Below are positions 285 through 59,133 of a stretch of 64,000 nt of DNA, one piece after another. Origin of the DNA: Kineosporia mesophila (lineage in GTDB: Bacteria > Actinomycetota > Actinomycetes > Actinomycetales > Kineosporiaceae); contig NZ_JAJOMA010000005.1 of NCBI RefSeq assembly GCF_021129235.1, positions 248,001-312,000 of the forward strand, given 5' to 3'. Every line of letters begins with the position of its first letter. Position 1 is the stretch's first letter. The notes under the pieces are model-generated. The model did not search any database, was not told the DNA's origin, and was given only the letters and a program-made list of their open reading frames with translations. Position numbers and translations under genes: made by a program.

Positions 285-367
285 CGTGATCAGGCGAAGC
301 GTCCCCGGCGTTCTGGAACTCTCGTCCTGACAGTTCTGGAGCGCCCGGCGGCACCTTGCATGATCAC
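285..367. repeat. Nested-palindrome repeat, family 1, decayed full-length copy
   Basis: Matches the 83-bp consensus seen at 41810, 44654 and 59051: a CGTGATCA-like left end, two GTTCTGGA cores where GTTCTAGAAC is expected, and a TTGCATGATCACC right end. Many stem positions are mismatched, so this is an old copy. It starts 12 nt after the LuxR stop. Confidence 0.75.
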
Positions 368-491
368 CAACAAAATCTTGGGCTTCGGGGCCCCGCTCGG
401 TGAATCGCTCTGACCTGGGCCGTTGAGCCCGCCCCGGCTGTGACCTCCGGCTTTTACCTGCATGCCGTCTGGCGTCGGGAACCTTCGAGGG

Positions 492-535
492 CGTAACTTA
501 CGTTTCCGTAGGCGTAACTTACGAAATCGTAAGTT
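492..535. promoter_or_regulatory. Double palindromic operator upstream of nitronate monooxygenase
   Basis: CGTAACTTACG occurs twice, at 492-502 and 513-523, exactly 21 bp apart. The second copy extends into the perfect inverted repeat AACTTACGAAATCGTAAGTT (516-535). The first has the same left half, AACTTACG, followed by CGTAGG at equal spacing. Two dyads two helical turns apart, 30 nt before the GTG start, look like a TetR-type double operator. No cognate regulator gene is adjacent. Confidence 0.6.
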
Positions 536-564
536 GATCATCTTCGACGGGAAGGCCTGCTGCT

Positions 565-2085
565 GTGAGGAACGAAGAGTCAGCGCCCGGTCTCGACCTG
601 GCGCAGCCCGGCAGTGAGCCGGCTCTGCCCGTCGTCATCCAGGGTGGGATGGGGGCCGCGGTCTCCGACTGGAACCTGGCCAACCAGGTCGCCCAGACCG
701 GCAACCTGGGCGTGGTGTCCGGCACCGCGCTCGACACCGTGGTGGCCCGACGTCTTCAGGACGGCGACCCGGGCGGCCACATGCGCCGCGCGCTGGCTCA
801 CTTCCCGGTGCCGGCCGTGGCCGACCGCATCCTGGAGCGCTACTTCCGTCCCGAGGGGCGCGAGGAGGGCCAGGCCTACCTGCCGGTGCCCAACCTGACC
901 CTGAAGCCGGTCAGCCGCAGCCGTGACCTGATGGTCGCCAGTGCCTTCGTCGAGGTCTGGCTGGCCAAGGAGGGCCACTCCGGCCCCGTCGGCATCAACC
1001 TGCTGGAGAAGATCCAGCTGGCGATCGTCCCCGCCGCCTACGGCGCGATGCTGGCCGGCGTCGACTACGTGCTCGTCGGTGCGGGCATTCCCTCGAAGAT
1101 CCCGCGCCTGCTCGACAAGCTGGCCCGCCACGAGCTCGCGGCGATGGACATCCACGTCGACGGCGGGACCCAGACGTACGCCACCGAACTCAACCCCCGC
1201 GACGTGGTGCCCGAGGACTTCCCCCCTCTGAAGCGTCCCAAGTTCCTCGCCATCATCGCCTCGCACCCCCTGGCCGCCTACCTGACCAAGGAAGAGGCCA
1301 CCACACCCGACGGTTTCGTCGTCGAGGGGCACATCGCCGGTGGGCACAACGCCCCGCCGCGGGGCCGCATGACGATCGAGAACGGCGAGCCGGTCTACGG
1401 CACCCGGGACGAGGCCGACGTGGCCAAGATCGCCAAGTTCGGCCTGCCGTTCTGGCTGGCCGGCGCCTACGCCACTCCCGAGCTGGTGCAGGAGGCCAAG
1501 GCCCTCGGCGCCGTCGGTGTGCAGGTCGGCACGATCTTCGCGCTGTGCAGCGACTCCGGCACCACCCCGCAGATGCGTGGCCAGTTGCTCGACGCCCTGG
1601 CCGGCGACCGCCTCGAGGTTCGCACCGACGCCCTGGCCTCCCCCACCGGCTTCCCGTTCAAGGTAGTGCCGATGGCCGGCACCCTGGGCGCCGAAGAGGT
1701 CTACGCCGAGCGCACCCGCATCTGCGACCTGGCCTACCTGCGCACGGCCTACGAGAAGAAGCCCGGCCAGCTGGGCTACCGCTGCCCGTCCGAGCCCGAG
1801 GACGACTACCTGCGCAAGGGCGGCGAGCTGAGCAACACCGTCGGCCGCAAGTGCCTGTGCAACGGCCTGATGGCCACCGTGGGCATGCCCCAGGTGCGTT
1901 CCGGTGTCGAGGAGGGCCCGCTGCTCACCCTCGGCTCCGACCTCACCGCCGCCAAGCAGCTGCTGGCCCTTCACCCGGACGGCTGGGACGCCCAGCAGGC
2001 CCTGGGCTACCTGCTCGGCGAGGTCCCGGCCGCTCGCACCACCCACGCCACCCGGGCCGAGGAACTGGCGCTCGCCGTCCGCTGA
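565..2085 (+). CDS. Nitronate monooxygenase (2-nitropropane dioxygenase family)
   Basis: A 506-residue FMN-dependent TIM-barrel protein of the 2-nitropropane dioxygenase family, which oxidises alkyl nitronates. The N-terminal VVIQGGMGAAVSDWNLA segment is the family's first strand and FMN loop. VDYVLVGAGIPSKIP follows in the middle, and EGHIAGGHNAPPRGR carries the glycine/histidine-rich segment near the active site. It is longer than the roughly 350-residue bacterial enzymes and resembles the long actinobacterial form, with a cysteine-containing C-terminal part (GRKCLCNGL). The start is GTG with GGGAAGG about nine bases upstream. A double palindromic operator lies just before it and a hairpin terminator just after. 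PfaD-like enoyl reductases share the fold, but no polyketide genes are nearby. Confidence 0.82.
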   Translation: MRNEESAPGLDLAQPGSEPALPVVIQGGMGAAVSDWNLANQVAQTGNLGVVSGTALDTVVARRLQDGDPGGHMRRALAHFPVPAVADRILERYFRPEGREEGQAYLPVPNLTLKPVSRSRDLMVASAFVEVWLAKEGHSGPVGINLLEKIQLAIVPAAYGAMLAGVDYVLVGAGIPSKIPRLLDKLARHELAAMDIHVDGGTQTYATELNPRDVVPEDFPPLKRPKFLAIIASHPLAAYLTKEEATTPDGFVVEGHIAGGHNAPPRGRMTIENGEPVYGTRDEADVAKIAKFGLPFWLAGAYATPELVQEAKALGAVGVQVGTIFALCSDSGTTPQMRGQLLDALAGDRLEVRTDALASPTGFPFKVVPMAGTLGAEEVYAERTRICDLAYLRTAYEKKPGQLGYRCPSEPEDDYLRKGGELSNTVGRKCLCNGLMATVGMPQVRSGVEEGPLLTLGSDLTAAKQLLALHPDGWDAQQALGYLLGEVPAARTTHATRAEELALAVR

Positions 2086-2094
2086 CCGATAGAT

Positions 2095-2127
2095 CCGGCA
2101 TGAGCACGAACCTCGTGCTCGTGCCGG
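2095..2127 (+). terminator. Stem-loop after nitronate monooxygenase
   Basis: A 13-bp stem with one G-T wobble: CCGGCATGAGCAC (2095-2107) pairs with GTGCTCGTGCCGG (2115-2127) across a 7-nt loop. It lies 10 nt after the stop. There is no clear T-run, so the terminator role is inferred. Confidence 0.6.
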
Positions 2128-2261
2128 CTCCGCGACAAAACCCTTCAAACGGTGGAAATGACGCACGAAAGTAAGCGAACTGTAAAGGTTCGCTCACTGC
2201 ATGTGTCGTAGTTCACCGTAAGTGGACTCGGCCCGTAGGGCGGAGCACACTGAGCACCAGT

Positions 2262-2455
2262 GGAGGGGAGTACTCCCTAGAACGGTGACGTCGTCAGCAC
2301 GGCATCTCGATACCAGGTCGGTCAGCGAAGACCGATCATGCCCGGCGTCATCGGCTCGGACCACCAGATCAGGCGCACCCGTACACGCGCCTCACGGTCT
2401 GCCGGGCGGAGGAGACCTCCGGTTCTTTCGCATGGGAAGAGACCGGAGGCCTTTT
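2262..2455 (+). ncRNA. yybP-ykoY-type (Mn2+) riboswitch leader of terC
   Basis: The leader starts with GGAGGGGAGTA (2262-2272) and ends with GGAGGAGACCTCC (2408-2420), the two conserved loop/P1 elements of yybP-ykoY riboswitches. P1 pairs GGAGG (2262-2266) with CCTCC (2416-2420). The same CCTCCGGT strand (2416-2423) can instead pair with ACCGGAGG (2442-2449), followed by TTTT (2452-2455). That alternative hairpin is a terminator and also buries the ribosome binding site GGAGG (2445-2449), 7 nt before the ATG. Metal binding, by forming P1, should free the site and turn expression on. The family assignment comes from recognised consensus elements and pairing, not from a covariance search. Confidence 0.78.
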
Positions 2456-2456
2456 A

Positions 2457-3497
2457 ATGCACGTCAGCGCGGCTTGGTGGATCGCCACCATCGCCCTGGT
2501 CCTCGGGATCACGGCCATCGACCTCTTCCTCAACCGGGGTCAGACGCACATCACCATTCAGCACGCCGTTCGGTGGGTGCTGTTCTACGTCGTCGTGGCC
2601 CTCGGGTTCGGCGGCGCGATCATCGTCGGGTTCGGTCCCGGCTACGGCGGGCAGTTCATCGCCGGCTGGCTCACCGAATACAGCCTGAGCGCCGACAATC
2701 TCTTCGTCTTCCTGGTGCTCATGACCAGGTTCTCGGTGCCCGAGTACCTGCAACTGCGGGTACTGACCATCGGCATCCTGATCGCCCTGGTGCTCCGGGC
2801 CGGCCTGATCGCCGTTGGCGCGGCCGCCATCCACCAGTTCTCCTGGGTCTTCTTCATCTTCGCCGCCTTCCTGCTCTACACCGCCTGGAACCTGCTGCGT
2901 TCCGGTCACGGGGGCGAGGACTCCGACGTGGAGGAAGAAGCCCCGCCCGCGGTGGCCGGTTTCATCGGCCGGGTCATCCCCAGCACGCCGGTCTGGCACG
3001 GCGGACGCCCGTTCGTGAAGCAGAGCCACCGCTGGATCGCCACGCCGATGCTCGTCACGATGATCGCCATCGGCGTCACCGACGTGCTCTTCGCCCTCGA
3101 CTCGATCCCGGCCATCTTCGGCCTGACGAAGGAACCCTTCCTCGTCGTCACCGCCAACGCCTTCGCCCTGATGGGCCTGCGCCAGCTCTTCTTCGTGGTG
3201 CGCGACCTGCTCGACCGTCTGCGCCACCTGGACACCGGCCTCTCGATCATCCTGGCGTTCATCGGGGTGAAGCTCGTGATGGAGGCGTTCCACGACAACA
3301 ACCTGCCGTTCCTGAACGACGGCGAGCCGATCCACTCGGTACCCGTGGTGCCGACCTGGATGTCGCTGGGCTTCATCGTCGCCGTGCTGGCGGTCGTCAC
3401 GGTCACCAGCACGATGGCCAACCGCCGCGACGCCCGCAACGCCGCGATCGCGGAGAACCAGTTCGCCACGAAGGACGAGCCCACCCGGGCCGCCTGA
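2457..3497 (+). CDS. TerC family integral membrane protein
   Basis: A 346-residue membrane protein with about eight hydrophobic segments. The TerC hallmark ELSADNLFVFL-type sequence is present as YSLSADNLFVFLVLM (near residue 80), and the second family motif as ITDVLFALDSIPAIFGLT (near residue 205). TerC/Alx proteins are metal-linked exporters, with Mn2+ efflux shown for some members; tellurite resistance is the historic name. A charged loop with acidic EDSDVEEEAPP lies between the halves. The ATG sits 7 nt after GGAGG, and that site is part of the upstream riboswitch hairpin, which supports a manganese role. A terminator follows. Confidence 0.92.
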   Translation: MHVSAAWWIATIALVLGITAIDLFLNRGQTHITIQHAVRWVLFYVVVALGFGGAIIVGFGPGYGGQFIAGWLTEYSLSADNLFVFLVLMTRFSVPEYLQLRVLTIGILIALVLRAGLIAVGAAAIHQFSWVFFIFAAFLLYTAWNLLRSGHGGEDSDVEEEAPPAVAGFIGRVIPSTPVWHGGRPFVKQSHRWIATPMLVTMIAIGVTDVLFALDSIPAIFGLTKEPFLVVTANAFALMGLRQLFFVVRDLLDRLRHLDTGLSIILAFIGVKLVMEAFHDNNLPFLNDGEPIHSVPVVPTWMSLGFIVAVLAVVTVTSTMANRRDARNAAIAENQFATKDEPTRAA

Positions 3498-3509
3498 CCA
3501 CCACTGCGG

Positions 3510-3545
3510 AACTCCCCTCGCTCACCGAGCCGGGGGAGTTTCCTT
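3510..3545 (+). terminator. Intrinsic terminator after terC
   Basis: AACTCCCC (3510-3517) pairs with GGGGAGTT (3533-3540) and is followed by TCCTTT. It lies 13 nt after the terC stop. Confidence 0.8.
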
Positions 3546-3764
3546 TGCCCAGGTGTGCCGGAAGGGCTGACCGGCCCCGGTACTGCACCCCGGATCATCG
3601 GACGGTCACGGACAGATGTGGCTGACTTTCTCCCTGCAGCTGGACGAGAGAGGGGAGGCTTAGACCGATATGGCCGGCACACATCCCTTGCGCCCTCTTC
3701 GGTTCCCCCGCCTGACTCGGTTCAGCGGCCCGGAACTCTGACCGCGTCAGCCTCATGGATCTGC

Positions 3765-3780
3765 GTCCGCATATGTGGAC
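3765..3780. promoter_or_regulatory. Candidate IclR operator, copy 1
   Basis: GTCCGCATATGTGGAC is a 16-bp palindrome with one mismatched pair (7 of 8 pairs match). It ends 42 nt before the iclR start. A related 16-mer lies at 5121-5136 before the first dehydratase gene, with shared consensus GTCCrCAyATGTGrAC. Two related dyads before the regulator and its neighbour suggest autoregulation. Confidence 0.55.
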
Positions 3781-3822
3781 AGCGCTCTGTTATCGTTTCG
3801 CCTCTCATCGAGAGGAGCGCCC

Positions 3823-4653
3823 GTGTCAACAGCGTTGTCGAGCTCGGGAAGCCCTGAAGAGATGTCCGAGCCCGCGGGTGTTCGTGAGGTCAAGTCGGCC
3901 GCGCGCACCGTCGAGCTGCTCGAGCATCTGGCCGCGCGGCAGAACCGGCCCGCCCGGCTGAGGGAACTCAGCGAGGCGCTCGGGGTGCCGCGCAGCAGTT
4001 TGCATGCCCTGCTGCGAACCTTGGCCAAGCACGGATGGGTTCGCGCGGACTCGACCGGGACGCTGTACGGCATCGGCATCCGGGCCCTGCTGGCCGGTAC
4101 CAGCTATCTGGACACCGATCCGTATCTGCCGCTGGTGCTTCCGGTGCTCGACGAACTGCGCGAACAGCTCGACGAGACCTTCCATTTCGGACGTCTGGAC
4201 GGGCCCGACGTGGTGTATCTGGCCACCCGCGAGTCCAGTCAGTACCTGCGCCCGTACAGCCGGGTCGGGCGCCGGCTCCCGGCCTACAGCACGTCCCTGG
4301 GCAAGTCGCTGCTGAGTGCCCGCACCGGTTCCGAGCTGGACGAGCACCTTCCGGCGTCCCTGGAAGCCCTGACCCCACACACCATCGCCGACCGTTCGGC
4401 GCTGGAGAAAGACCTCGAGGAGACCCGGCAGCGCGGCTACGCCGTGGACAACCAGGAGAACAGCCTCGGGCTCAAGTGTTTCGCCGTACCCCTGCGCTAT
4501 GCCGAACCCGCGGTGGACGCCATCAGCGCCTCCGTCCCGATCGCCCGGCTGAACCCGCAGCGTGAGGCCGAGGTGATCCAGGCCCTGCGCAACGCCGGCG
4601 ACCGGATCAGCCGCGTCGTCACCCCGGTCTCCGTCAACAACGCCTGGGTATGA
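3823..4653 (+). CDS. IclR family transcriptional regulator of the hexarate cluster
   Basis: An IclR-type regulator of 276 residues. The N-terminal winged helix (REVKSAARTVELLEHLA, then RLRELSEALGVPRSSLHALLRTL) is followed by the effector domain, with LDETFHFGRLDGPDVVYLA and the conserved PAYSTSLGKSLLS and GYAVDNQENSLGLKCFAVPLR segments. The GTG at 3823 is preferred because AGAGGAG sits 5 nt upstream; an in-frame GTG/ATG further upstream lacks such a site. It is the first gene of a plus-strand group that runs into the glucarate dehydratase-like gene. Family members such as KdgR sense sugar acids, so a hexarate effector is likely but inferred. A palindrome repeated before this gene and before 5178 is its probable binding site. 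Confidence 0.92.
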   Translation: MSTALSSSGSPEEMSEPAGVREVKSAARTVELLEHLAARQNRPARLRELSEALGVPRSSLHALLRTLAKHGWVRADSTGTLYGIGIRALLAGTSYLDTDPYLPLVLPVLDELREQLDETFHFGRLDGPDVVYLATRESSQYLRPYSRVGRRLPAYSTSLGKSLLSARTGSELDEHLPASLEALTPHTIADRSALEKDLEETRQRGYAVDNQENSLGLKCFAVPLRYAEPAVDAISASVPIARLNPQREAEVIQALRNAGDRISRVVTPVSVNNAWV

Positions 4654-4655
4654 AC

Positions 4656-4687
4656 CCCTACGCTCAGCTTTTCAGCCGAGCGTAGGG
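4656..4687. terminator. Perfect 10-bp inverted repeat between iclR and next gene
   Basis: CCCTACGCTC (4656-4665) pairs with GAGCGTAGGG (4678-4687) across a 12-nt loop containing TTTT. It fills the gap after the iclR stop and touches the next start codon, so it may end iclR transcripts or limit translation of the following gene. Confidence 0.55.
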
Positions 4688-5098
4688 ATGACGATGAACC
4701 TGGTCAGAATGTTCGTGAACGGGCAGGGCATGCAGGGCGGGGAGTTCAACGACGCGTTTGCCGGCGCCACCTTCCTGGGCGAGGTCGACACCGCCCCGCA
4801 GTACCGGTTCTTCTCGGTCCGTGACGTCTTTCCCGGCCTGCACCCCGTCGCCGAGGGTGGCCGGGCGGTTCCGGGCGAGCTCTACGAGCTGCCCTACCTG
4901 ATGCTCGCCCACGAGCTCCTGCCGCGGGAACCGGAAGAGCTCGAGCTCGGCATCATCGAGCTGGCCGACGGAACCGGCTCACTGTCGATGCGGATGCGTG
5001 AAACCGCCCTCGAAGCACCGGGTGTGGTGGACATCAGCGATGCCGGTGGCTGGCGCGCCTATCTGAAGAGCCAGAACCTTCCCTTCGGCCAGCCCTGA
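4688..5098 (+). CDS. Gamma-glutamylcyclotransferase-like small protein (allophanate hydrolase C-terminal-like)
   Basis: A 136-residue protein. The start LVRMFVNGQGMQGGEFNDAF and the middle YRFFSVRDVFPGLHPVAEGG, GELYELPYLMLAHELLPREP resemble the gamma-glutamylcyclotransferase-like fold that forms the C-terminal domain of allophanate hydrolases (AtzF type). Here it stands alone without an amidase domain. There is no good ribosome binding site: the start lies right after a perfect hairpin, and ATG 4694 is an equally good choice. It sits between iclR and the dehydratase gene, so it may belong to the sugar-acid cluster. No pathway step is evident for it. The fold assignment is by recognition of sequence pattern only. 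Confidence 0.6.
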   Translation: MTMNLVRMFVNGQGMQGGEFNDAFAGATFLGEVDTAPQYRFFSVRDVFPGLHPVAEGGRAVPGELYELPYLMLAHELLPREPEELELGIIELADGTGSLSMRMRETALEAPGVVDISDAGGWRAYLKSQNLPFGQP

Positions 5099-5120
5099 GC
5101 CGTCTACCAGCGTGACCCTT

Positions 5121-5136
5121 GTCCACACATGTGAAC
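5121..5136. promoter_or_regulatory. Candidate IclR operator, copy 2
   Basis: GTCCACACATGTGAAC matches the iclR-proximal palindrome at 12 of 16 positions and is itself a dyad (6 of 8 pairs). It ends 41 nt before the glucarate dehydratase-like start, nearly the same distance as copy 1 from iclR. Confidence 0.5.
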
Positions 5137-5177
5137 CGTGTCAGGATGCTCGGGACGTCTCCCAATGAAGGGTTGCC

Positions 5178-6440
5178 ATGTCCGAGCTGATCTGTGCCGT
5201 CCGTGTGACGCCGGTGGCCTTCCGAGACCTTCCGCTGCTCAACAGCGTTGGGGTGCACGAGCCGTTCGCACTGCGCACGATCGTCGAGGTGGTCACGGCG
5301 GGAGGGCAGTACGGGCTCGGTGAGACCTACGGTGACGAGCCCCATCTGCGGCGCATCGAGAAGGCCGCCGCCGCGCTGGTCGGTACCGACGTGTTCGACC
5401 TTCACGAAATGCAGCGCCGGGTGATCGTTTCCCTGGCCGACGACCGCCAGGTCGGCGGGCACGGCATGGCCGGCATGGTGACCACGTCGTCCACCGGTGA
5501 CCGGGTGCTGTCGCCGTTCGAGGTCGCGGCACTCGATCTTCAGGGCAAAATTACGGGACGCCCGGTGAGCGATCTGCTCGGCGGCGCGGTTCGCGACCGG
5601 GTGAGTTTCACGGGTTATCTCTTCTACAAGTGGGCCGGGCATCCGGGCCAGGAGGACGACGCGTGGGGTGCCGCACTCGACCCCGACGGACTGGTCCGGC
5701 AGGCCCGGAAAATGATCGACGAGTACGGTTTCTCGTCGATCAAGCTGAAGGGCGGCGTGTTCCCTCCGGACCAGGAGGTGGCTGCGATCAGGGAGCTGCG
5801 GAAGGCTTTTCCCAGCACTCCGCTGCGCCTGGACCCGAATGCCGTCTGGACCGTGCCCACCTCGATCAAGGTCGGGCAGGACCTCGAGGGCGTCCTGGAG
5901 TATCTCGAAGACCCGACCGCGGGCATCCCGGGGATGGGCGAGGTGGCCCGCGAGGTGCCGATGCCGTTGGCCACGAACATGTGCGTGGTGGCGTTCGACC
6001 ACCTGAAACCGGCTGTTCAGCAGGGCGCCGTGGGCGTGGTGCTGTCGGACCACCACTTCTGGGGCGGGCTGCGACGGTCGCAGTCGCTCGCCGCCATCTG
6101 CGACACCTTCGACCTCGGCCTGTCGATGCACTCGAACTCGCATCTGGGCATCAGCCTCGCCGCGATGGTGCATCTGGCCTCCGCCACACCGAATCTCGAC
6201 TACACCTGCGACACGCACTGGCCGTGGAAGAGGCCAGAAGACGATGTGGTGGTGCCCGGTGCACTGGGTTTCGAGAACGGTGCGGTGAAAGTACCGACAG
6301 AACCCGGTCTGGGCGTCGAACTCGACCGCGACGCACTGGCCCGCATGCATCAGCAGTACCTGGACTCCGGAATCCGTAACCGTGACGACACCGGCTACAT
6401 GCGCAGCGTGAATCCGGAGTGGAAGGCTCCGCTCTGGTGA
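5178..6440 (+). CDS. Glucarate dehydratase-like enolase superfamily enzyme
   Basis: A 420-residue enolase-superfamily protein of the glucarate dehydratase branch, which removes water from D-glucarate or a related hexarate to give 5-dehydro-4-deoxyglucarate. Catalytic and metal-binding elements are all present: IKLKGG (the KxK motif), LRLDPNAVW, YLEDPTAG, LATNMCVV, LSDHHFWGG and MHSNSHLGIS with the general-base histidine. The C-terminal part differs clearly from E. coli GudD (ending in SVNPEWKAPLW), whereas the second copy at 16584 is GudD-like throughout. This one may therefore act on another aldarate, such as galactarate or a sugar lactone-derived acid. Its stop overlaps the GTG start of the next dehydrogenase (GTGA). 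Confidence 0.85.
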   Translation: MSELICAVRVTPVAFRDLPLLNSVGVHEPFALRTIVEVVTAGGQYGLGETYGDEPHLRRIEKAAAALVGTDVFDLHEMQRRVIVSLADDRQVGGHGMAGMVTTSSTGDRVLSPFEVAALDLQGKITGRPVSDLLGGAVRDRVSFTGYLFYKWAGHPGQEDDAWGAALDPDGLVRQARKMIDEYGFSSIKLKGGVFPPDQEVAAIRELRKAFPSTPLRLDPNAVWTVPTSIKVGQDLEGVLEYLEDPTAGIPGMGEVAREVPMPLATNMCVVAFDHLKPAVQQGAVGVVLSDHHFWGGLRRSQSLAAICDTFDLGLSMHSNSHLGISLAAMVHLASATPNLDYTCDTHWPWKRPEDDVVVPGALGFENGAVKVPTEPGLGVELDRDALARMHQQYLDSGIRNRDDTGYMRSVNPEWKAPLW

Positions 6441-7405: not shown

Positions 7406-7429
7406 GCAATAAGCAGTCACAGTAAGCAC

Positions 7430-8251: not shown

Positions 8252-8254
8252 GAG

Positions 8255-8298
8255 TGGTGGACGACAACGAGACCGCCAGTGTCGTCGTCCACCATTTT
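8255..8298 (+). terminator. Intrinsic terminator between convergent genes
   Basis: TGGTGGACGAC (8255-8265) pairs perfectly with GTCGTCCACCA (8284-8294) and is followed by TTTT (8295-8298). It starts right after the stop of the 7430 gene and abuts the end of the convergent ABC operon. Confidence 0.88.
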
Positions 8299-10267: not shown

Positions 10268-10268
10268 C

Positions 10269-16412: not shown

Positions 16413-16427
16413 AGAACACCCCCTGCC

Positions 16428-16510
16428 GTGATCATGCAGAACCTCCCCAGCGTTCTAGAACTGTGGCCGTGAGAGTTCTAGAACTCCGGGGAGGTTTTGC
16501 ATGATCACGG
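16428..16510. repeat. Nested-palindrome repeat, family 1, full-length copy
   Basis: 83 bp from CGTGATCATGC to GCATGATCACG. Two GTTCTAGAAC cores lie in the arms, flanked by CCTCCCC on the left and GGGGAGG on the right, then TTTT. The left arm has changes (CAGCGTT) that weaken the inner pairing. It starts 16 nt after the dehydrogenase stop. Confidence 0.9.
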
Positions 16511-27780: not shown

Positions 27781-27865
27781 GGGCGGATTCGTGCCCGTCG
27801 ACGTCGCGCTCGCGGATCGGCCCCGCCATCTGCAGATAGATACAAGATCCCCTGACCCTTGTTTG

Positions 27866-27912
27866 CGATCATGCAGAGTTCTAGAACTCTGGGGAGGTTT
27901 TGCATGATCACG
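27866..27912. repeat. Nested-palindrome repeat, family 1, short form (47 bp)
   Basis: CGATCATGC at the left end, one GTTCTAGAAC core, then CTGGGGAGGTTTTGC and ATGATCACG. Relative to the 83-bp form it has lost one core and the left CCTCCCC arm. It ends 22 nt from the azlCD stop codon. Confidence 0.88.
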
Positions 27913-39269: not shown

Positions 39270-39312
39270 CGTGATCATGCGAACCTTCCCGGGGAGGTTT
39301 TGCATGATCACG
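39270..39312. repeat. Nested-palindrome repeat, family 1, mini form (43 bp)
   Basis: CGTGATCATGC, then GAACCTTCCCCGGGGAGGTT and TTGCATGATCACG. Both GTTCTAGAAC cores are missing, leaving the outer arms closed by the GC-rich stem. It starts 16 nt after the DJ-1 gene stop. Confidence 0.9.
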
Positions 39313-41809: not shown

Positions 41810-41892
41810 CGTGATCATGCAAAACCTCCCCGGAGTTCTAGAACTGTGGGCCTAAGAGTTCTAGAGCACCGGGGAGGTTTTGCATGATCACC
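41810..41892. repeat. Nested-palindrome repeat, family 1, full-length copy
   Basis: 83 bp. Left half: CGTGATCATGCAAAACCTCC, then CCGGAGTTCTAGAACTG. Right half: GAGTTCTAGAGCACCGGGGA, then GGTTTTGCATGATCACC. The right core has one change (GAGC). It starts 18 nt after the SDR stop and lies between convergent genes. Confidence 0.92.
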
Positions 41893-44653: not shown

Positions 44654-44736
44654 CGTGATCATGCAAAACCTCCCCGGAGTTCTAGAACTGTGACCGCAAG
44701 AGTTCTAGAACGCCGGGGAGGTTTTGCATGATCACG
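44654..44736. repeat. Nested-palindrome repeat, family 1, full-length copy
   Basis: 83 bp with intact ends and both GTTCTAGAAC cores. The left arm reads CAAAACCTCCCCGGAG and the right arm CGCCGGGGAGGTTTTG. It starts 14 nt after the FMN reductase stop and ends 9 nt before the convergent SDR stop. Confidence 0.93.
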
Positions 44737-46282: not shown

Positions 46283-47218
46283 TCAGCGTTCCGGAGTTCT
46301 GGAACTCCGGGAACACTTTGCCTGATCACCAGGGAGTGGGGCTTCCAGTCGCTGGCCCGGTGACGACGTGGGGTGTTCGTCACCCTCGCGGGCCAGGAAC
46401 GCCACGCCGGTCAGCACCGTGATCAGCCCGGCCACCTCGAGGCTCAGCAGGGCCGGGTCGGAGCTGGGGGACTCGCTGAACACGAGCACGCCGAAAGTGA
46501 CCGCGATGACCGGGTTCACCACGTTGAGCACCGGTAGTGAGTGCGACAGCGGCGCCCGGTTGTAGGCGTACTGGTTGCTGAGGAACCCGGATGCGCCGAG
46601 CCCCGCGAGCACGTAGATCGGCCAGGTGGTGAGGGCTTCCCAGATACTGGCCGACGACGTGACCACCTTGATCATCGAGGCGATCAGGCCGAAGATCAGG
46701 CCGCCGGCGATGCCCATGAGCAGACCGGCCCGGGTGGTGGGTGCTCGCGTGGCCAGCCACCAGGTGACGGCCGCGGCGCAGCCGGCCACGGCGACGAAGA
46801 CCAGTGCCGATCTCGAGCTGACGTCGGGTGAGCTCTCACTGCTGCGCGCGCCGACGAGGAACACCGCGATCCCGGCCGCCACCACGACCACCCAGATCAT
46901 GATGCGGGGCTGCGGCCACCGGCGATCGAGCACCGCGCGGAAGACGAACGCGAAGACCAGCCCGGTGACGACGATCGGCTGTACCACCGCCAGCGACCCG
47001 AGCCTGAGGGCGACGGCGTGCAGGCCCAGACCCCCGAGGCTGGCCGCGATCCCGGCCAGCCACGTCGGCTGGTTGGCGAGGTGCCGCAGCAGGTGCGCCA
47101 GACCCCGCAGGCCTCCCGGCCCCTCGGGGGCACGGGAGGCGCTGTGGTGCATCAATGCGGTCGACGCACCGAAGGCGATCGCGTCGAGAAAGGCGACCAG
47201 GATCGCTGGTGCGTTCAC
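46283..47218 (-). CDS. DMT superfamily (EamA-like) transporter
   Basis: A 311-residue membrane protein with about nine or ten hydrophobic spans in two EamA-like halves. These include AILVAFLDAIAFGASTALMH at the start, LAVVQPIVVTGLVFAFVFRA in the middle of half 1 and VVNPVIAVTFGVLVFSESPS in half 2. The VQPIV.TGLVFA and NPV.AV.FGV..F.E segments are typical of drug/metabolite exporters. The substrate is unknown. The final 16 or so residues (PGDQAKCSRSSRTPER) are read from a decayed family 1 repeat, so the original stop may have been replaced when the repeat arrived. No strong ribosome binding site is evident at ATG 47218. Confidence 0.85.
   Translation of the reverse strand: MNAPAILVAFLDAIAFGASTALMHHSASRAPEGPGGLRGLAHLLRHLANQPTWLAGIAASLGGLGLHAVALRLGSLAVVQPIVVTGLVFAFVFRAVLDRRWPQPRIMIWVVVVAAGIAVFLVGARSSESSPDVSSRSALVFVAVAGCAAAVTWWLATRAPTTRAGLLMGIAGGLIFGLIASMIKVVTSSASIWEALTTWPIYVLAGLGASGFLSNQYAYNRAPLSHSLPVLNVVNPVIAVTFGVLVFSESPSSDPALLSLEVAGLITVLTGVAFLAREGDEHPTSSPGQRLEAPLPGDQAKCSRSSRTPER
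46286..46330. repeat. Nested-palindrome repeat, family 1, decayed short form
   Basis: GCGTTCCGGAGTTCTGGAAC, then TCCGGGAACACTTTG and CCTGATCACC. One core (GTTCTGGAAC) and a degenerate right end remain. It starts 8 nt after the tetR stop, and the 3' end of the convergent DMT gene runs into it. Confidence 0.65.
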
Positions 47219-50976: not shown

Positions 50977-50989
50977 TCGACAATGTCGA
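50977..50989. promoter_or_regulatory. Candidate IclR/GylR operator in the glycerol divergent promoter
   Basis: TCGACAATGTCGA is a perfect 6-1-6 dyad, within GTTCGACAATGTCGAC. It lies 30 nt from the iclR start and 91 nt before glpF. Confidence 0.55.
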
Positions 50990-51079
50990 CAGAGAGGCGT
51001 GTCGCTGTGGCCAGCGTTTTCATAGCGTCGAAGGACCCCGAAACATCGGGGCAACAATCATCAGATCGAGGGTGACGCC

Positions 51080-51958: not shown

Positions 51959-51961
51959 GTC

Positions 51962-53476
51962 ATGGCAGATCTCGTCGGTGCAATCGACCAGGGCACGACC
52001 AGTACGCGTTTCATGCTTTTCGACCACGAGGGCAACGAGCGGGGCAAGCACCAGCTCGAGCACAGCCAGATCATGCCGCAGGCCGGCTGGGTGGAACACA
52101 GCCCCGTGGAGATCTGGGAGCGCACGCGGTCGGTCATGACCAACACGCTCAACGGCCTGGGCCTTCAGCCCTCCGACCTGGCCGCGCTGGGCATCACGAA
52201 CCAGCGCGAGACCACGGTGGTCTGGAACAAGAAGACCGGCCGGCCGTACTACAACGCGATCGTCTGGCAGGACACCCGTACCGACCGCATCGCCTCCGCC
52301 CTGGAGCGCGAGGGCAAGGGCGACGTGATCCGGCAGAAGGCGGGCATCCCGCCGGCCACCTACTTCTCGGCCGGCAAGATCCAGTGGATCCTCGAGAACG
52401 TGCCCGGTGCGCGTGAAGACGCGGAGAAGGGCGACGCGGTCTTCGGCAACACCGACAGCTGGCTGGTCTGGAACCTGACCGGTGGCGTCAACGGTGGCAA
52501 GCACGTCACCGACGTGACCAACGCCAGCCGCACCATGCTGATGAACCTGGAGACGCTGGACTGGGACGACGAGCTGCTGGGGTTCTTCAACATCCCGCGC
52601 CAGATGCTCCCGGAGATCAAGCCCTCGTCCGAGCCGTCCTGGTACGGCGAGGTCGTCGACCCCTCCGGATTCCACGGCATCCCGATCTCCGGCATCCTCG
52701 GCGACCAGCAGGCCGCCATGGTCGGCCAGGTCTGTTTCGCCGCCGGCGAGGCCAAGAACACCTACGGCACCGGCAACTTCCTCCTGCTGAACACCGGTAA
52801 CGAGCTTGTCCGCTCGAAGAACGGCCTGCTCACCACGGTGTGCTACCAGTTCGGCGACAGCGCCCCGGTCTACGCCCTGGAAGGGTCGATCGCGGTCACC
52901 GGATCGGCCGTGCAGTGGCTGCGCGACCAGCTCGGCATCATCTCCGGCGCCTCGGAGGTCGAGACCCTGGCCCGCAGTGTCGAGGACACCGGGGGCATGT
53001 ACTTCGTGCCGGCCTTCTCCGGCCTCTTCGCCCCGTACTGGCGCAGTGACGCCCGTGGAGCGATCGTCGGGATGTCGCGGTACAACACCAATGCGCACCT
53101 GGCCCGGGCCACGCTGGAATCGATCTGCTACCAGAGCCGGGACGTCTCCGAGGCCATGGAGGCCGACTCCGGGGTGCACGTCGATGTGCTGAAGGTGGAC
53201 GGTGGGGTGACCGCGAACGAGCTGGCCATGCAGCTTCAGGCGAACATTCTCAACGTGCCGGTCAGCCGGCCCGTGGTCGCCGAGACCACTGCCCTGGGTG
53301 CGGCCTACGCGGCCGGCCTGGCCGTCGGGTTCTGGCAGAACACCGACGAGCTGCGGGCGAACTGGAACGAATCGAAGCGCTGGACGCCGGAGTGGTCCGA
53401 CGAACAGCGCAGCAGCGGTTACGCGGGCTGGAAGAAGGCCGTGGACCGAACGATGGGATGGGTGGACGTAGATTGA
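51962..53476 (+). CDS. glpK: Glycerol kinase (copy 2, glpFKD operon)
   Basis: A 504-residue FGGY glycerol kinase. It includes [91 protein letters not shown] and [20 protein letters not shown]. The C-terminal signature region is [20 protein letters not shown]. It lies between glpF (3-nt gap) and glpD (4-bp TTGA overlap), so this is the main kinase of the catabolic operon. The iclR-linked copy at 48654 is a paralogue; why the genome keeps both is not evident. Confidence 0.94.
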
Positions 53477-55185
53477 GTACCACGCAGGAACCGTTCAGCC
53501 CGGCCGGCCGTGAGGCAGCACTGGCACGACTGGCATCAGAGGAACTCGACGTCCTGGTGATCGGGGGCGGGGTGGTCGGGGCCGGTGCGGCTCTGGACGC
53601 CGTGACCCGTGGCCTGAACACCGGTCTGGTCGAGATGCGGGACTACGCCGCGGGCACCTCCAGCCGATCGACCAAGCTGTTCCACGGTGGCCTGCGTTAC
53701 CTGGAGCAGTTCAACTTCGCCCTCGTCTTCGAGGCGCTGAAGGAGCGGTCGCTGAACCTGGAGACCCTGGCGCCGCACCTCGTGCACCCGGTGGAGTTCA
53801 TCTACCCGCTGACCAAGGCGTTCGATCACGCCTACGTGTCACTGGGTATGGGCGTCTACGACGTCATGGGCTCGGGCCGGGGTGTACCGCACCACATGCG
53901 GTACATGCGCCGGGCCAAGGCGAAGGAGTCGTTCCCCTCGGGCAAGGGCTCGGAGATCTCCGGTGCCATCTCGTTCTACGAGGGCCAGGTCGACGACGCC
54001 CGTCACACCATGATGATCGCCCGGACGGCGGCCAACTACGGTGCGGCGATCGCGAACAGCACCCGGGTCGAACGGTTCCTGCGTGAGGACGACCGGGTCA
54101 TCGGGGTTGTCGCCCGGGACCTGGAGTCGGGCAAGGAGTTCGAGATCCACGCGCAGCACGTGATCAACGCGGCCGGCGTGTGGACCGACGAGATCCAGGA
54201 GATGGTCGGCGGACGCGGCTCGTTCCGGGTCCGCGCCTCCAAGGGCGTGCACGTGGTGGTCCCGCGCAACCGCATCAACAGTGCCACCGGGATCATCCAC
54301 CGCACCGAGAAGAGCCTGCTCTTCATCATCCCGCGGGGCAGTCACTGGGTGATCGGCACGACGGACACGGACTGGGAGCTCGACAAGGCCCACCCGGCCG
54401 CCAGCCAGACCGACATCGACTACCTGCTGGACCACGCGAACGCCCTGCTGGCCGACCCGCTGACCCGGGACGACGTGGTGGGTGTCTACGCCGGGCTCCG
54501 GCCGCTGCTGGCCGGGGAGAGCGAGTCCACCAGCACGCTCTCCCGGGAGCACGCGGTGGCCAGCCCGGTGCGGGGCCTGACCGTCATCGCGGGTGGGAAG
54601 TACACCACCTACCGGGTGATGGCCAAGGATGCCGTCGACAACGCGGTGCACGGCCTGGACCGGGTCGTCGCACCGTCCTGCACCGAGCGCATCCCGCTGA
54701 TCGGGGCCGACGGCTATTTCGCGGCCTGGAACAACCGGCAGGCGATCGCCAGGCGGGCCGGGCTGCGGGTGCACGTGCTGGAGCACCTGCTCAACCGGTA
54801 CGGCAGCCTGTACACGCAGCTGCTCAGCCTGATCGAGGAGCGGCCCGAGCTGGGTGAGCCACTCACCGGTGGCGACGAGTACCTCAAGGCCGAGGTCGTG
54901 TACGCGGCCTCGCACGAGGGGGCTCAGCACCTGGACGACATCCTCGCCCGTCGTACCCGCCTCTCGATCGAGGTGCGGGACCGCGGGGTCGAGGCCGCCC
55001 AGGAGGTTGCCGCGCTGGTGGCCCCGATCCTCGGGTGGGACGCCGGCCAGACCGCCCGCGAGATCGAGCACTACACCAAGCGGGTCGCGGCGGAGATCGA
55101 GTCGCAGAAGCAGCCCGACGACCAGACCGCCGACTCCGCGCGTCTGGGCGCACCCGACGTCCGGGTGGGCATCCCCTCAGCCTGA
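53473..55185 (+). CDS. glpD: Aerobic glycerol-3-phosphate dehydrogenase
   Basis: A 570-residue FAD flavoprotein that oxidises sn-glycerol-3-phosphate to dihydroxyacetone phosphate, feeding the quinone pool. It includes [20 protein letters not shown] (FAD loop), [20 protein letters not shown] (the GlpD/GlpA active-site motif), [16 protein letters not shown] and [22 protein letters not shown]-terminal DAO_C helical domain ends near residue 540. The TTG start overlaps the glpK stop (TTGA), so expression is coupled. A long GC-rich hairpin follows. Confidence 0.94.
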
Positions 55186-55204
55186 TCGGCTGATCCGCAA
55201 GACT

Positions 55205-55241
55205 TCGCGGCCGTCCCGGAAAACCCCCGGGGCGGCCGCGA
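55205..55241 (+). terminator. Stem-loop after glpD
   Basis: TCGCGGCCG (55205-55213) pairs with CGGCCGCGA (55233-55241), and the inner TCCCGG with CCGGGG, giving about 15 bp. There is no T-run. It lies 20 nt past the stop. Confidence 0.65.
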
Positions 55242-55296
55242 ATCCCATGTTCGGGGGACATCCGGAACCGGTGTACGGCTCGTAGGCTCAGCTTTC

Positions 55297-55965
55297 ATGT
55301 TCACCTTGCGGAAGTCCGCGGCCGGCATCGTGGCCGCCGCTGCTCTCGTCGGCCCGCTCGCGCTCGTCACCACCCCGGCGGCCGCCCAGACGATTCCGTC
55401 GTGTGACGTACGACCCCGGGGCACCACCTTCCTCACCCAGCCCAAGACCATCGACTTCGATGTTCCCTCGGCGCGGCACTTCACCTTCCGGCTCCCCGAG
55501 ATCGGCCTGTACGTCTACGACACCTCGGTGGACGGCGACGCCAGCGTGGCTCAGGTCGACCCGAAGAAGCTCGAGAACGCCGACGCCCGCTGGCACCTGG
55601 GCACCGTGGAGCGCGAACGCGGCGACGGCACCACCGATACCTGCACCGGTATCTGGCGCCTGCGGCGCGGCACCCGGATCGAGATCACCAGGGTGCAGAA
55701 GATCAAGTACGGCCGCAAGGTCACCGGCACGCTGGAGCGGGTGAACTGGGGCAAGACCCCGAAGACCCGCTGGGCGACGTACTCCGACCAGGAGGTCGAC
55801 ATCCAGTTCGTCAACGCCCGGGGCCAGTGGCAGTACGGCGGCCGGGTACCCGTCGAGCACGGCCGGTTCACCTTCACGAAGCAGATCGGTGAACGCACGT
55901 GGCGCGCCTATTTCCAGGGCACCGACATCTCCGGGTCCGACTACTCCTCCGAGGTCACCGGCTGA
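55297..55965 (+). CDS. Secreted protein, tandem paralogue A
   Basis: A 222-residue protein with a signal peptide (RKSAAGIVAAAALVGPLALV, cleavage likely after TPAAAQ). The mature part begins with a cysteine-containing strand (IPSCDVRPRGTTFLTQPKTI) and ends in a beta-rich region: KVTGTLERVNWGK, then SDQEVDIQFVNARGQWQYGG and FTKQIGERTWRAYFQGTDIS. This end is shared with the next gene (KVTGTLKRVNFGA, SGQKVRVQYLNGKGSWVTAR, KLGKHRWRATYAGTGTTGAR). It resembles Ig-like secreted proteins of actinomycetes. No enzyme motif is seen and the function is unknown. Confidence 0.75.
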   Translation: MFTLRKSAAGIVAAAALVGPLALVTTPAAAQTIPSCDVRPRGTTFLTQPKTIDFDVPSARHFTFRLPEIGLYVYDTSVDGDASVAQVDPKKLENADARWHLGTVERERGDGTTDTCTGIWRLRRGTRIEITRVQKIKYGRKVTGTLERVNWGKTPKTRWATYSDQEVDIQFVNARGQWQYGGRVPVEHGRFTFTKQIGERTWRAYFQGTDISGSDYSSEVTG

Positions 55966-56076
55966 GCTGCTGTGGATCGGGATGGAGGACGCGCATCACG
56001 ACGGATCGCGACCCTCCGGGTCGGTCGGTGGTGGCCTTCGTGAACCGTGAGGCGCCCACCGCCCGTCATATTCAGT

Positions 56077-56727
56077 ATGACGACCCTTCTGCGCCGGACC
56101 GTCGCGGGCCTGGCCGCGTGCGCGGTTCCCCTCGCGATTCTGCTGTCGGCCCAGCCCGCCAGCGCCGCCTCGTGCAAGATCACCCCCAGTAGCACGACCC
56201 TCTACCAGCGGTCGAAGAACGTCACCTTCAACGTTCCCTCCGCGCAGTACTGGACCCTCTCGATCGCCGACATCAACCTGTCCGTGTACAAGGTGGACGG
56301 CAAGGCCGACCGGATCGCGACCTTCAGCCCGTCGCGGTTCGCCAACGCCGACGCCGGTTCGTACGCGGTCAAGGTGCAGCGCCAGAACGGCACCGCCATC
56401 GACAGCTGCTCGGCGTCGTTCCACCTGAAACGCGGCACTGATCTCGCCATCTCGGTGAAGACGGTGTCGTCGTCGCGGAAGGTCACGGGCACCCTGAAGC
56501 GGGTGAACTTCGGCGCCGGGGCAACGAAGTGGCAGAAGCTGTCAGGCCAGAAGGTGCGCGTGCAGTACCTCAACGGCAAGGGCTCCTGGGTCACCGCCAG
56601 GACCGTGAAAACCAGCAAGAAGGGCGCTTTCTCGGCCACCGTGAAGCTCGGCAAGCACCGCTGGCGGGCCACCTACGCCGGCACCGGCACCACCGGGGCC
56701 CGCACCTCGTCCTCAGTTACCCGATGA
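56077..56727 (+). CDS. Secreted protein, tandem paralogue B
   Basis: A 216-residue protein with a signal peptide (LRRTVAGLAACAVPLAILLS, cleavage likely after QPASA). SCKITPSSTTLYQRSKNVTF at the start of the mature part and the repeated C-terminal pattern match paralogue A: both have a cysteine pair (near residues 33 and 110) and the same KVTGTL-RVN-G.W....Q.V..Q..N..G.W layout. It is probably a beta-sandwich domain with a disulfide. The genes are 111 bp apart and may be co-expressed. The ATG at 56077 has no clear Shine-Dalgarno sequence. Function unknown. Confidence 0.75.
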   Translation: MTTLLRRTVAGLAACAVPLAILLSAQPASAASCKITPSSTTLYQRSKNVTFNVPSAQYWTLSIADINLSVYKVDGKADRIATFSPSRFANADAGSYAVKVQRQNGTAIDSCSASFHLKRGTDLAISVKTVSSSRKVTGTLKRVNFGAGATKWQKLSGQKVRVQYLNGKGSWVTARTVKTSKKGAFSATVKLGKHRWRATYAGTGTTGARTSSSVTR

Positions 56728-57003
56728 CCGAAAGGTAACGTTCAGGACAGTCCCGCGCCACCGCGCCCGGCGGATGCCAGCTTCCCGATCATGAAGCCGC
56801 CCCGCCGGGCTTTTGCCTGCCTGGCAACTGCTTTCGCCGTCGGTAGGAAGCAGCGCGACGTCACTCTCCACACCACCTTCGCCAACAGCGACCTCGACGA
56901 GCCACCGGCGCCCACACGTCGAAAGCCGTGACGCGCTGATGCGTTGACCCGGCCGGGTTTCAGGGCACGATGGTCTCGTCCGTCCTGCCCGAGGGGAGAC
57001 CTG
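56728..57003. other. 276-bp gap before the glucosidase gene
   Basis: Contains a small GC-rich stem with TTTT (CCGCCCCGCCGGGCTTTT, 56800-56817), which may end the secreted-paralogue transcript. The short frames in it do not look like a gene. Confidence 0.4.
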
Positions 57004-59055
57004 ATGCCCGAGACCGACCCGGTGACCCAGCACCCGTGGCTGCACGACCTCGTCACGTCCCTGAGCGCGCCGACCACGGTGCTGAGCGATGCCTCCGGGC
57101 AGATCCGCGAGCGCGGGGTGCAGGGCGTGCTGCACTGCGACGTCCGGGTGCTCTCGTCGGCCGTGCTGCTCGTCGACGGGGAGGAACCCACCCCGATCGG
57201 TGGGGGCCCGGTCTCGGCCGGTGTGGCCCGGTTCGTGGCGGTGCCCCGGAGGCTCGGGGGTGACGGTCCGGACGCGGTGATGCGGGTCGATCGCACCCGG
57301 TCGGTCGGGGCGGGGCGGGTCGAGGAACGGATCGAGCTGAGTTCCGACCGCCCCCGGCCGGTCCCGGCGACGGTGACGCTCGTGGTGGCGCCGGCCCGGC
57401 AGCGGGTCGAGACCATCCGGTCGCCCGGGTCCCCGCCACTGGTCGCACCGGACCGGTCGGTGGACGAGTCGCACGTGCGCTGGGGTGCGGACGAGGTGGT
57501 GGCCGATCTCGACGCGCCCGGGGCTCGTATCGACGACGACGGCCAGGCGGTGCGGCTGCACTGGACGGTCGAGGTCCCCGTCGGCGGCGCGGTGAGCCTG
57601 ACCTGGCGGCTGACCCTCGAGGCCCCCACGGCGCCGGTGACCGGCCTCGGCGACCGGAACGTCCCTGCTCTGCACCGGGAACCACAGGCCCAGGCCGACG
57701 ACCGGCGCCTGGCGGCCCTGATCGGCACCTCCTGGAGCGATCTGCAGGCCCTGCGCATGGCGCCGGCCGACGATCCGGGCGCCGTCTTTCTGGGAGCGGG
57801 ATCTCCCTGGTATTTCACTCTTTTCGGACGGGACAGCCTGTGGGCCGCGCGCCTGCTGCTGCCCTTCGGCACCGATCTGGCCGAGGGCACCCTGCGGGCG
57901 CTGGCGGCCCGGCAGGGCACGACGACCGATCCGGCGACCGACGAGGAGCCGGGCAAGATCCTGCACGAACTGCGCGCGACGGCCACACGGCACGCCCAGG
58001 GCGGTGTCGAGGGCGGAATGAGCCTTCCGCCGCTGTACTACGGCACGATCGACGCCACGCTGCTGTGGATCTGCCTGCTGCACGACGCCTGGCGCTGGGG
58101 AATGGCCGAAGACACTGTGCGGTCCCTTGTTCCGGCCCTGGAGGCGGCCCTGGGCTGGCTCGGCGACCAGGGGGACGAGTTCGTCCGGTACCCCGGTTCC
58201 AGCACGGGCCTGGCCAACCAGGGGTGGAAGGACTCGCCCGACGCGGTCCGCTTCGCCGACGGCACGATCGCCGACGGGCCGGTGGCACTGTGCGAGGTGC
58301 AGGGCTACGCGCACGAGGCCGCCGTGCACGGTGCCGACCTGCTCGACCATTTCGGCCGGCCCGGTGGGGTGTCATGGCGGGACCGGGCGCAGCGGCTGGC
58401 GACCCGGTTCCGCGAGTCGTTCTGGGTGACCGGCGCCGACGGCGAGCGCTTCCCGGCCCTGGCCCTCGACGGTTCCGGACGCCCCGTCGACGCGCTGACC
58501 AGCAACATCGGGCATCTGCTGGGCACCGGTCTGCTCTCGTCGGCGGAGTCCGAGCAGGTCGCGAGGTTACTGAGGGGCCCGGCCCTGTCCAGCGGGTTCG
58601 GGCTGCGCACCATGGCCTCCACCGAGGGCGGGTACTGGCCGCTGAGCTATCACTGCGGCTCGGTCTGGGCCCACGACACGGCGATCGCGATTCACGGGCT
58701 GCACCGCAGCGGGCTCGGCGCATCGGCGTTCGGCCTGGTCGAAGGGCTGCTGCGGACGGCGGCGGAGTTCGGCTACCGGCTCCCGGAGTTGCACAGCGGT
58801 GAGGGCGGGAGCCTGGTGCCCTACCCGGCCGCCTGCCGCCCCCAGGCCTGGTCCGCGGCGGCGATCGGCCCGCTCGTGCAGGTCCTGGCCGGGCTCTCGG
58901 CCGACAACGGCACGCTGGAGTGCCTACCGCCCCAGAACTCCCCGTTCGGGGCCCTGCGGGTGAGCGGCCTGCGCTTCGGCCCGGACGAGGCCACGGTGAC
59001 GGTCGACCGCGAAGGCCGGGGCCGCCTGACCACCCCCACCCAACCCCTTCCGTGA
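57004..59055 (+). CDS. Amylo-alpha-1,6-glucosidase / glycogen debranching-type protein
   Basis: A 683-residue intracellular protein. The N-terminal glycogen-debranching N domain (TTVLSDASGQIRERGVQGVL, CDVRVLSSAVLLVDGEEPTP) is followed by an (alpha/alpha)6 barrel of the GH63/GH133-like type: PWYFTLFGRDSLWAARLLLP, GMSLPPLYYGTIDATLLWIC, then STGLANQGWKDSPDAVRFAD and TMASTEGGYWPLSYHCGSVW. These carry the acidic residues expected of trehalase-like glucosidases. It may debranch glycogen or act on another alpha-glucan. The ATG at 57004 follows GGGGAG. Its stop codon region is already inside a family 1 repeat. Confidence 0.83.
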   Translation: MPETDPVTQHPWLHDLVTSLSAPTTVLSDASGQIRERGVQGVLHCDVRVLSSAVLLVDGEEPTPIGGGPVSAGVARFVAVPRRLGGDGPDAVMRVDRTRSVGAGRVEERIELSSDRPRPVPATVTLVVAPARQRVETIRSPGSPPLVAPDRSVDESHVRWGADEVVADLDAPGARIDDDGQAVRLHWTVEVPVGGAVSLTWRLTLEAPTAPVTGLGDRNVPALHREPQAQADDRRLAALIGTSWSDLQALRMAPADDPGAVFLGAGSPWYFTLFGRDSLWAARLLLPFGTDLAEGTLRALAARQGTTTDPATDEEPGKILHELRATATRHAQGGVEGGMSLPPLYYGTIDATLLWICLLHDAWRWGMAEDTVRSLVPALEAALGWLGDQGDEFVRYPGSSTGLANQGWKDSPDAVRFADGTIADGPVALCEVQGYAHEAAVHGADLLDHFGRPGGVSWRDRAQRLATRFRESFWVTGADGERFPALALDGSGRPVDALTSNIGHLLGTGLLSSAESEQVARLLRGPALSSGFGLRTMASTEGGYWPLSYHCGSVWAHDTAIAIHGLHRSGLGASAFGLVEGLLRTAAEFGYRLPELHSGEGGSLVPYPAACRPQAWSAAAIGPLVQVLAGLSADNGTLECLPPQNSPFGALRVSGLRFGPDEATVTVDREGRGRLTTPTQPLP

Positions 59056-59133
59056 TCATGCAAAACCTCCCCCGAGTTCTAGAACTGTGGCGGTGAGAGT
59101 TCTAGAACTCGGGGGAGGTTTTGCATGATCACG
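59051..59133. repeat. Nested-palindrome repeat, family 1, full-length copy with covarying stem
   Basis: 83 bp. The left arm reads AACCTCCCCCGAGTTCTAGA and the right arm TCTAGAACTCGGGGGAGGTT, so the stem differs from the 44654 copy on both sides yet still pairs. It overlaps the end of the glucosidase gene: that stop is at 59053-59055. Confidence 0.93.

Follow-up and report, generated by a model that had tools for sequence, protein, structure and literature searches.

A dispersed palindrome family at gene ends of Kineosporia mesophila and its association with an AbiEi-Vsr-like nuclease gene

The ends of Tn7-like transposons carry several protein-site-like repeats of ~20 bp in inverted orientation. 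AbiEi proteins, the antitoxins of the type IV AbiE toxin-antitoxin systems, are autoregulators that bind repeated 23-bp sites: two inverted repeats separated by a 3-bp gap near their own gene or, for Rv2827c of Mycobacterium tuberculosis, pairs of repeats with a 13-bp gap (PMC7319586). MTES_1575 is a nuclease with the Vsr fold (PMC3710099). In REPtrons, short, extragenic, species-specific palindromes accompany a single-copy partner gene that lies between cognate repeats (PMC3733652). Here we analyse a family of palindromic elements in a stretch of 64,000 nucleotides from the actinobacterium Kineosporia mesophila (contig NZ_JAJOMA010000005.1, positions 248,001 to 312,000; called the window below). 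Eight copies had been pointed out in an earlier note made from the window alone, which took them for bidirectional terminators and perhaps domesticated mobile elements. We consider it likely that these palindromes are non-autonomous, gene-less members of a mobile family that includes a nuclease-bearing member and spreads by a process resembling homing or gene conversion, not by DDE or HUH transposition.

Palindromic elements of the window and the genome

The full form of the element reads TGATCATGC-AAAACCTCCCC-..GTTCTAGAAC-[13 nt]-GTTCTAGAAC..-GGGGAGGTTTT-GCATGATCA, with CG before and CG after. Its GTTCTAGAAC core occurs eight times within the window, against 0.00 expected in shuffled sequence. 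The outer arms CGTGATCATGC/GCATGATCACG match perfectly in four copies (16427, 39270, 44654 and 59051) and almost perfectly in three (285, 27864 and 41810), and full forms with their flanks have predicted folds of about -68 to -87 kcal/mol. Core counts, arm matches and folds confirm the feature at all eight places, with coordinates shifted by at most 2 nt. The earlier division into full, one-core and coreless forms also holds, except for decay in the copies at 285 and 46286, the latter of which keeps one outer arm. The copies are listed below without strand, together with the state of the same sites in G005, a sister species 93.6% identical over the window.

285 to 369: decayed full form with GTTCTGGAAC cores; the G005 orthologue is intact
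16427 to 16509: full 83-bp form with two GTTCTAGAAC cores and loop TGTGGCCGTGAGA; the right arm in G005 is a 29-bp variant
27864 to 27912: short form with a single GTTCTAGAAC core; the orthologous G005 region lacks the element
39270 to 39312: coreless 43-bp form; the versions at the same place in G005 and the relative G002 differ in their inner arms
41810 to 41892: full form; the right arm in G005 is the 29-bp variant, and the relative G003 has an unrelated strong hairpin there
44654 to 44736: full form between convergent genes; the right arm in G005 is the 29-bp variant
46286 to 46330: relic with a GTTCTGGAAC core and the right outer arm only; G005 has the scar CTCGTGATCACGAACGGG, with a single TGATCA
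59051 to 59133: full form; the plus-strand open reading frame (ORF) 57004-59055 stops at the TGA (59053-59055) in the left arm of the element

A search of the window for known RNA families in Rfam gave no match. The pattern of a GC-rich stem followed by TTTT, on which the terminator idea had been built, is present in the arm of this lineage (AAAACCTCCCC/GGGGAGGTTTT) and absent from relatives with the same outer arms; TTTT does sit within the stem, as had been remarked.

The genome-wide search for paired cores with arm ends that had been proposed as a check returned at least 118 dispersed copies. These comprise 75 copies with both exact cores and a further 43 hairpins that are shorter and have exactly the same outer arms, each against 0 for reversed-pattern controls. 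The outer motif is seldom unpaired: TGATCATGC occurs 24 times forward and 25 times in reverse in 453 kb, near the number of paired arms. An analogy with DNA uptake sequences (DUS, or uptake signal sequences, USS) was rejected, as single, unpaired motifs are in no clear excess. Paralogous loops are ~32% identical over their central 7 nt, compared with ~29% expected at this GC content, and many orthologous loops are conserved; loop identity relative to column composition is trivially equal and was not used as a test. A second family of hairpins with GTCCTCAATT/AATTGAGGAC ends also lies at gene ends (C13:79357, window position 61929 and others), with ~14-20 copies in 453 kb.

The nuclease gene and its cognate arms

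One member of the family carries a gene. At C1:144964-146090 of the K. mesophila genome, outside the window, the element arms enclose a loop of 1.1 kb in place of the 13-nt loop, and this sole gene-bearing member of the genome encodes a protein of 319 residues, whose coding sequence is L026:5011-5970 on the minus strand. The protein joins an AbiEi-like DNA-binding half to a Vsr-like nuclease domain of the EDxHD type (DUF559/MTES_1575). Pfam gives a match to AbiEi_4, with REase_MTES_1575 and AbiEi_1 below the cut-off; among 41 relatives of the protein, MTES_1575 matches in 37 and DUF559 in 14. The putative catalytic residues E210, D243, E254-Y-D-G, H261, D270 and RR273-274 are invariant across 21 sequences. 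An AlphaFold2 model of the Quadrisphaera homologue (predicted local distance difference test, pLDDT, 93; predicted template-modelling score, pTM, 0.90) was searched with Foldseek, which ranks an AbiEi antitoxin (6y8q) first and the catalytic domain of I-Bth0305I (3r3p) third, the latter with probability 1.00 and a template-modelling score (TM-score) of 0.65 on the target. A sequence profile search (hmmsearch) also returns 3r3p, weakly. At both the K. mesophila and the G005 locus there is one gene only between the arms, with no AbiEii nucleotidyltransferase neighbour.

Three kinds of evidence connect this nuclease with the repeats around it. First, the arms are cognate. The best homologue in G013, G016, G034 and G151 sits between that genome's own TGATCATGCA arms, and in the first three of these 2-4 direct arms lie on one side of the gene and 2-4 inverted arms on the other. 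The same arms enclose the nuclease gene in six palindrome-bearing genomes; other lineages have a different cognate arm, a genome-specific unit of ~20 bp, unrelated in sequence and in identical inverted arrangement around the gene. With a flanking inverted repeat scored above 35 bits and the array search seeded from nucleases of the K. mesophila family, 46 of 71 named nuclease loci are flanked, compared with 0/123 other genes of the same loci. The named loci include Cellulomonas, Georgenia, Kineococcus, Quadrisphaera, Aeromicrobium, Kribbella, Nocardioides, Mumia and Williamsia. Such repeats flank 15/21 distant paralogues as well, and among 200 random genes of K. mesophila and G005 the threshold is exceeded by the two nuclease genes alone.

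Second, flanking units are themselves dispersed. The Williamsia unit recurs genome-wide (36/40 hits, control 0), as does the Mumia unit (25/48, control 1/2), both in arrays phased at 21 bp, and the two units are almost absent from the other genomes searched.

Third, repeats and nuclease vary together. When hairpin-rich is taken to mean 8 or more hairpins of the general type per genome, the nuclease is present in 13/14 hairpin-rich genomes against 18/382 others (Fisher p 4e-15, with related genomes counted as independent; p 0.001 at genus level). The more alike two nucleases are, the more alike are their arms (Mantel r 0.28, p 2e-4; for a control with distal DNA, r -0.05, p 0.81).

Several observations adjoin these loci. 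The distant AbiEi-DUF559 paralogues L095-L114, ~30% identical, are flanked by other palindromes, for example AGAGAAGTGGGGCACCTGAG..CTCAGGTGCCCCACTTCTCT and GAGTGGGCAGATTCGCACCG. In Williamsia herbipolensis, inverted 21-bp arrays between convergent genes enclose ordinary-looking genes (L253:1605-2474, L254:1476-2272 and L255:1551-2135), which by eye are flavin-reductase-like, DUF308-like and YqeY-like and are possibly captured cargo. In the 250 bp upstream of AbiEi-DUF559 nuclease genes, a DnaA-box-like motif, TT[AGT]TCCACA, is present for 29/120 genes against 4/1560 control windows, and it occurs 0 times downstream, a distribution that hints that nuclease expression or action may be tied to replication. 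An example is:

L026, 6010 to 6040: TTGTCCACA ... TGTGGATAA, DnaA-box-like motifs upstream of a nuclease gene

Turnover of copies and arms, and placement at gene ends

Copies of the element are gained and lost at orthologous sites between close relatives. G005 carries 70 double-core copies, while G001-G004 carry 0-1 each. Of the window sites, 287, 16429, 39272, 41812 and 44656 carry the element in G005; G003 has it at none of those that are readable, and G002 at 39272 only, with different inner arms. Most copies were thus gained in the lineage leading to K. mesophila and G005. The outer arms TGATCATGC...GCATGATCA are shared by 16 of the 396 draft genomes compared within the order, spread over eight families, with an inner sequence private to each; G016 and G034 share a genus, yet their cores differ, and within one genus the copy number ranges from 0 to 100+.

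No target-site duplication was found. At most 1/39 copies has a direct repeat of 4 nt or more at any one offset, and shuffles give the same. Insertion specific to CGTGATCACG was considered and rejected, with just 2-4 such sites in 400-450 kb. G005 keeps a single TGATCA at the sites corresponding to C13:120600, C1:154647 and window position 46286. This looks more like a deletion scar between TGATCA ends than an insertion target, because the G003 and G002 sequences at 46286 lack that scar. Separately, the G003 region orthologous to 46286 (within L277-L280) holds another array family, with some ten or more CTCGCGAGGCAGGGCTT-like units.

Resident copies also change in place. Across five orthologous pairs of full length, 13/330 arm positions and 20/65 loop positions differ, one pair being accounted for by inversion of the centre. 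The hairpin centre is inverted between collinear outer flanks at C1:205793 (G005 C1:1604377) and C1:1367 (G005 C1:1406637), and the nuclease gene itself is inverted between the arms in K. mesophila relative to G005, again with collinear flanks. Stem changes occur on both sides at C13:53224 (A/T to T/A), C13:75548 (C/G to T/A) and C1:62219. The 29-bp arm variant of G005 occupies both arms at its nuclease locus; dispersed copies have it on one arm, and most of their orthologues are plain-armed. Within 480 kb of G005 the variant is confined to these elements, and the idea that it is an independent mobile hairpin was rejected on that ground. Most simply, resident copies had their arms rewritten from the nuclease locus; since the loop of such a donor is a 1.1-kb gene, rewriting would explain why arms are constant and loops private. 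Taken together, gain and loss, inversion between arms and replacement of one arm suggest nuclease-driven homing or gene conversion.

Placement was measured on 453 kb of K. mesophila and 399 kb of G005, with genes called by a simple codon-usage method. Within 45 nt of a called stop codon lie 35 of 42 copies, at a median of 19 nt, whereas random intergenic insertion would place 6.4 there (maximum 15 in 5000 trials). Three copies, the one at 59051 among them, supply the stop TGA from their own arm. The claim that copies follow stop codons, rather than lying inside genes or upstream of starts, is upheld genome-wide and for nearly all eight window copies; at 59051 it needs correction, as the stop is the TGA within the arm and not another one 24 nt further upstream, and the end of an ORF called on the minus strand overlaps the relic at 46286. 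Of 13 related arrays examined in W. herbipolensis, 12 are placed between convergent genes, in many cases with 5-24 nt to the stop on either side; a 400-kb sample of Quadrisphaera granulorum held too few copies for gene-end statistics. At the orthologous G003 gene ends 41812, 44656 and 39272 there are unrelated hairpins (z -7.1, -4.3 and -3.2; few sites, exploratory), so the elements seem to occupy terminator positions. It is plausible from these arrangements that they take over the function of a terminator hairpin, in both directions, and copies probably last best just 3' of genes, above all between convergent genes.

Competing explanations and comparison with known systems

Membership of the palindromes in a mobile family is well supported; its biochemical mechanism, from arm binding and cleavage to the copying route and the terminator function, is what we infer. 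The AbiEi-like part would bind the repeated arm units, and the Vsr-like part would cut or nick at element ends or at similar sites. Host repair would then copy arms into the cut site and, more rarely, the whole element. Copies that come to lie just 3' of genes would stand in for the terminator hairpin.

Several points weigh against this reading. No transposition, cleavage or binding has been observed, and orthologous comparisons gave no clean empty site with a duplication. Simple copying leaves the unique loops of otherwise identical copies unexplained. Roughly one in three of the named nuclease loci (71 in all) has no detectable array, in some cases because a contig end is near, and the co-occurrence and Mantel p values leave part of the phylogeny out. 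G007 has 64-69 hairpins of the type TGATCATGCACTTTCGA..TCGAAAGTGCATGATCA and no close nuclease, and a search of this genome for a direct-arm array that would locate one found none; its hairpins are either an orphan family or their gene is absent from the assembly. A close nuclease is also absent from G002, G003 and G075, with 3-5 hairpins each.

The alternative that survives best, still an unlikely one, makes the protein a DNA-binding regulator or defence nuclease and the repeats immobile sites of use to the host, as a regulon, for chromosome organisation or for self-marking. The autoregulatory binding of AbiEi to repeated sites and the resemblance of the 20-21-bp phased arrays to multi-site binding DNA agree with it. 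Host sites of this kind are hard to reconcile with copies that come and go between close relatives, lie 3' and not 5' of genes and vary from none to over a hundred per genome in one genus, or with arrays on either side of the gene that are inverted relative to each other.

We find it improbable, somewhat more so, that a DDE insertion sequence moved the palindromes as standard miniature inverted-repeat transposable elements (MITEs), the nuclease gene being a passenger in one copy. Terminal inverted repeats, dispersal and short non-coding derivatives are all MITE-like, and the Williamsia arrays enclose ordinary genes too. Across many genera whose arm sequences are unrelated, though, what recurs within or next to cognate arms is a nuclease and no transposase; the arm co-varies with the nuclease, and target-site duplication is absent.

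There is little to be said for plain bidirectional terminators under selection, similar through recombination and only incidentally linked to the nuclease. The proximity to stops, the strong folds, the paired arm changes that preserve the stem and the unrelated strong hairpins at the G003 sites all fit terminators; selection of this kind does not account for an outer 9-10 bp kept across families of the order beside unrelated inner arms, for lineage-specific copies, for the nuclease association in many lineages, or for TTTT that sits within the stem and is missing in relatives.

Mobilisation of repetitive extragenic palindromic (REP) elements by a Y1 tyrosine transposase (RAYT) is scarcely credible despite the REPtron-like architecture, as the hairpin foot lacks the GTAG/CGTC tag and the Y1/RAYT search proposed earlier found no PF01797 match in the hairpin-rich genomes searched (G000, which is K. 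mesophila, G005, G007, G013, G016, G034 and G151), the one match in 17 genomes falling in G004, a genome without hairpins. For these genomes the RAYT reading is refuted, save for the chance that a highly diverged HUH protein escaped the search. The absence of Y1/RAYT and of target duplication means that the elements are neither REP/RAYT nor standard MITEs. The earlier suggestion of a mobile REP/MITE-like element is thus right about mobility, in that copies are dispersed, lineage-specific, gained and lost, and share ends with a gene-bearing relative; the enzyme, though, is not a Y1/RAYT transposase, and there is no target-site duplication. A phage or plasmid origin was set aside, with just 1 weak phage and 5 weak plasmid matches.

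Carrying the mobile-family reading further, we lean towards a new class of mobile element, in which a single AbiEi-Vsr-like nuclease has a cognate ~20-bp repeat as its recognition site, carries itself, captured genes and short non-coding palindromes into intergenic terminator positions, and keeps re-templating resident arms by conversion that it triggers. The pairing of nuclease and palindromes seems new to the literature: no description was found in the open-licence part of PubMed Central, a scope outside which subscription papers and most preprints fall. If true, this gives a role to many solitary AbiEi/DUF559 genes, abundant and functionally unexplained in actinobacteria, and accounts for the origin of species-specific palindromes at actinobacterial gene ends. 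It would also add a type of mobile element that uses a Vsr-like nuclease, not a DDE, HUH, serine or tyrosine recombinase or reverse transcriptase enzyme, and a concrete route by which terminators are swapped between convergent genes in evolution. The pairing offers ready-made pairs of nuclease and recognition site for testing.

Among described systems, REPtrons share the species-specific short palindromes outside genes and the one cognate gene between the genome's own repeats. Here, in contrast, that gene is an AbiEi plus Vsr-like nuclease and not a Y1 HUH transposase, the feet are CG-TGATCATGC...GCATGATCA-CG on both sides with no GTAG/CGTC, and the arms are symmetrical inverted repeats or arrays of 2-5 units. 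Like MITEs, the elements are short, non-coding inverted repeats whose ends are common to a gene-bearing element; unlike them, they show no target duplication and each copy has a unique loop. No DDE transposase lies within the same ends, where the gene is the AbiEi plus Vsr-like nuclease; a genome-wide transposase census was not made. Tn7 resembles the nuclease loci in having several inverted ~20-bp repeats at each end, but here there is one nuclease gene with no DDE partner found. The AbiEi antitoxins match the N-terminal half in fold and in Pfam; a C-terminal nuclease fusion and the genome-wide dispersal of the sites, which also lie to either side of the gene, set the present family apart. 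I-Bth0305I, an EDxHD/Vsr-like homing endonuclease, has the same catalytic fold, and conversion in place from the nuclease locus is homing-like. The gene described here is not part of an intron or intein; it differs also in its flanking inverted repeat arrays and in the many dispersed non-coding copies that accompany it. Conversion of one arm to the nuclease-locus variant in G005 points, indirectly, to copying of the homing type.

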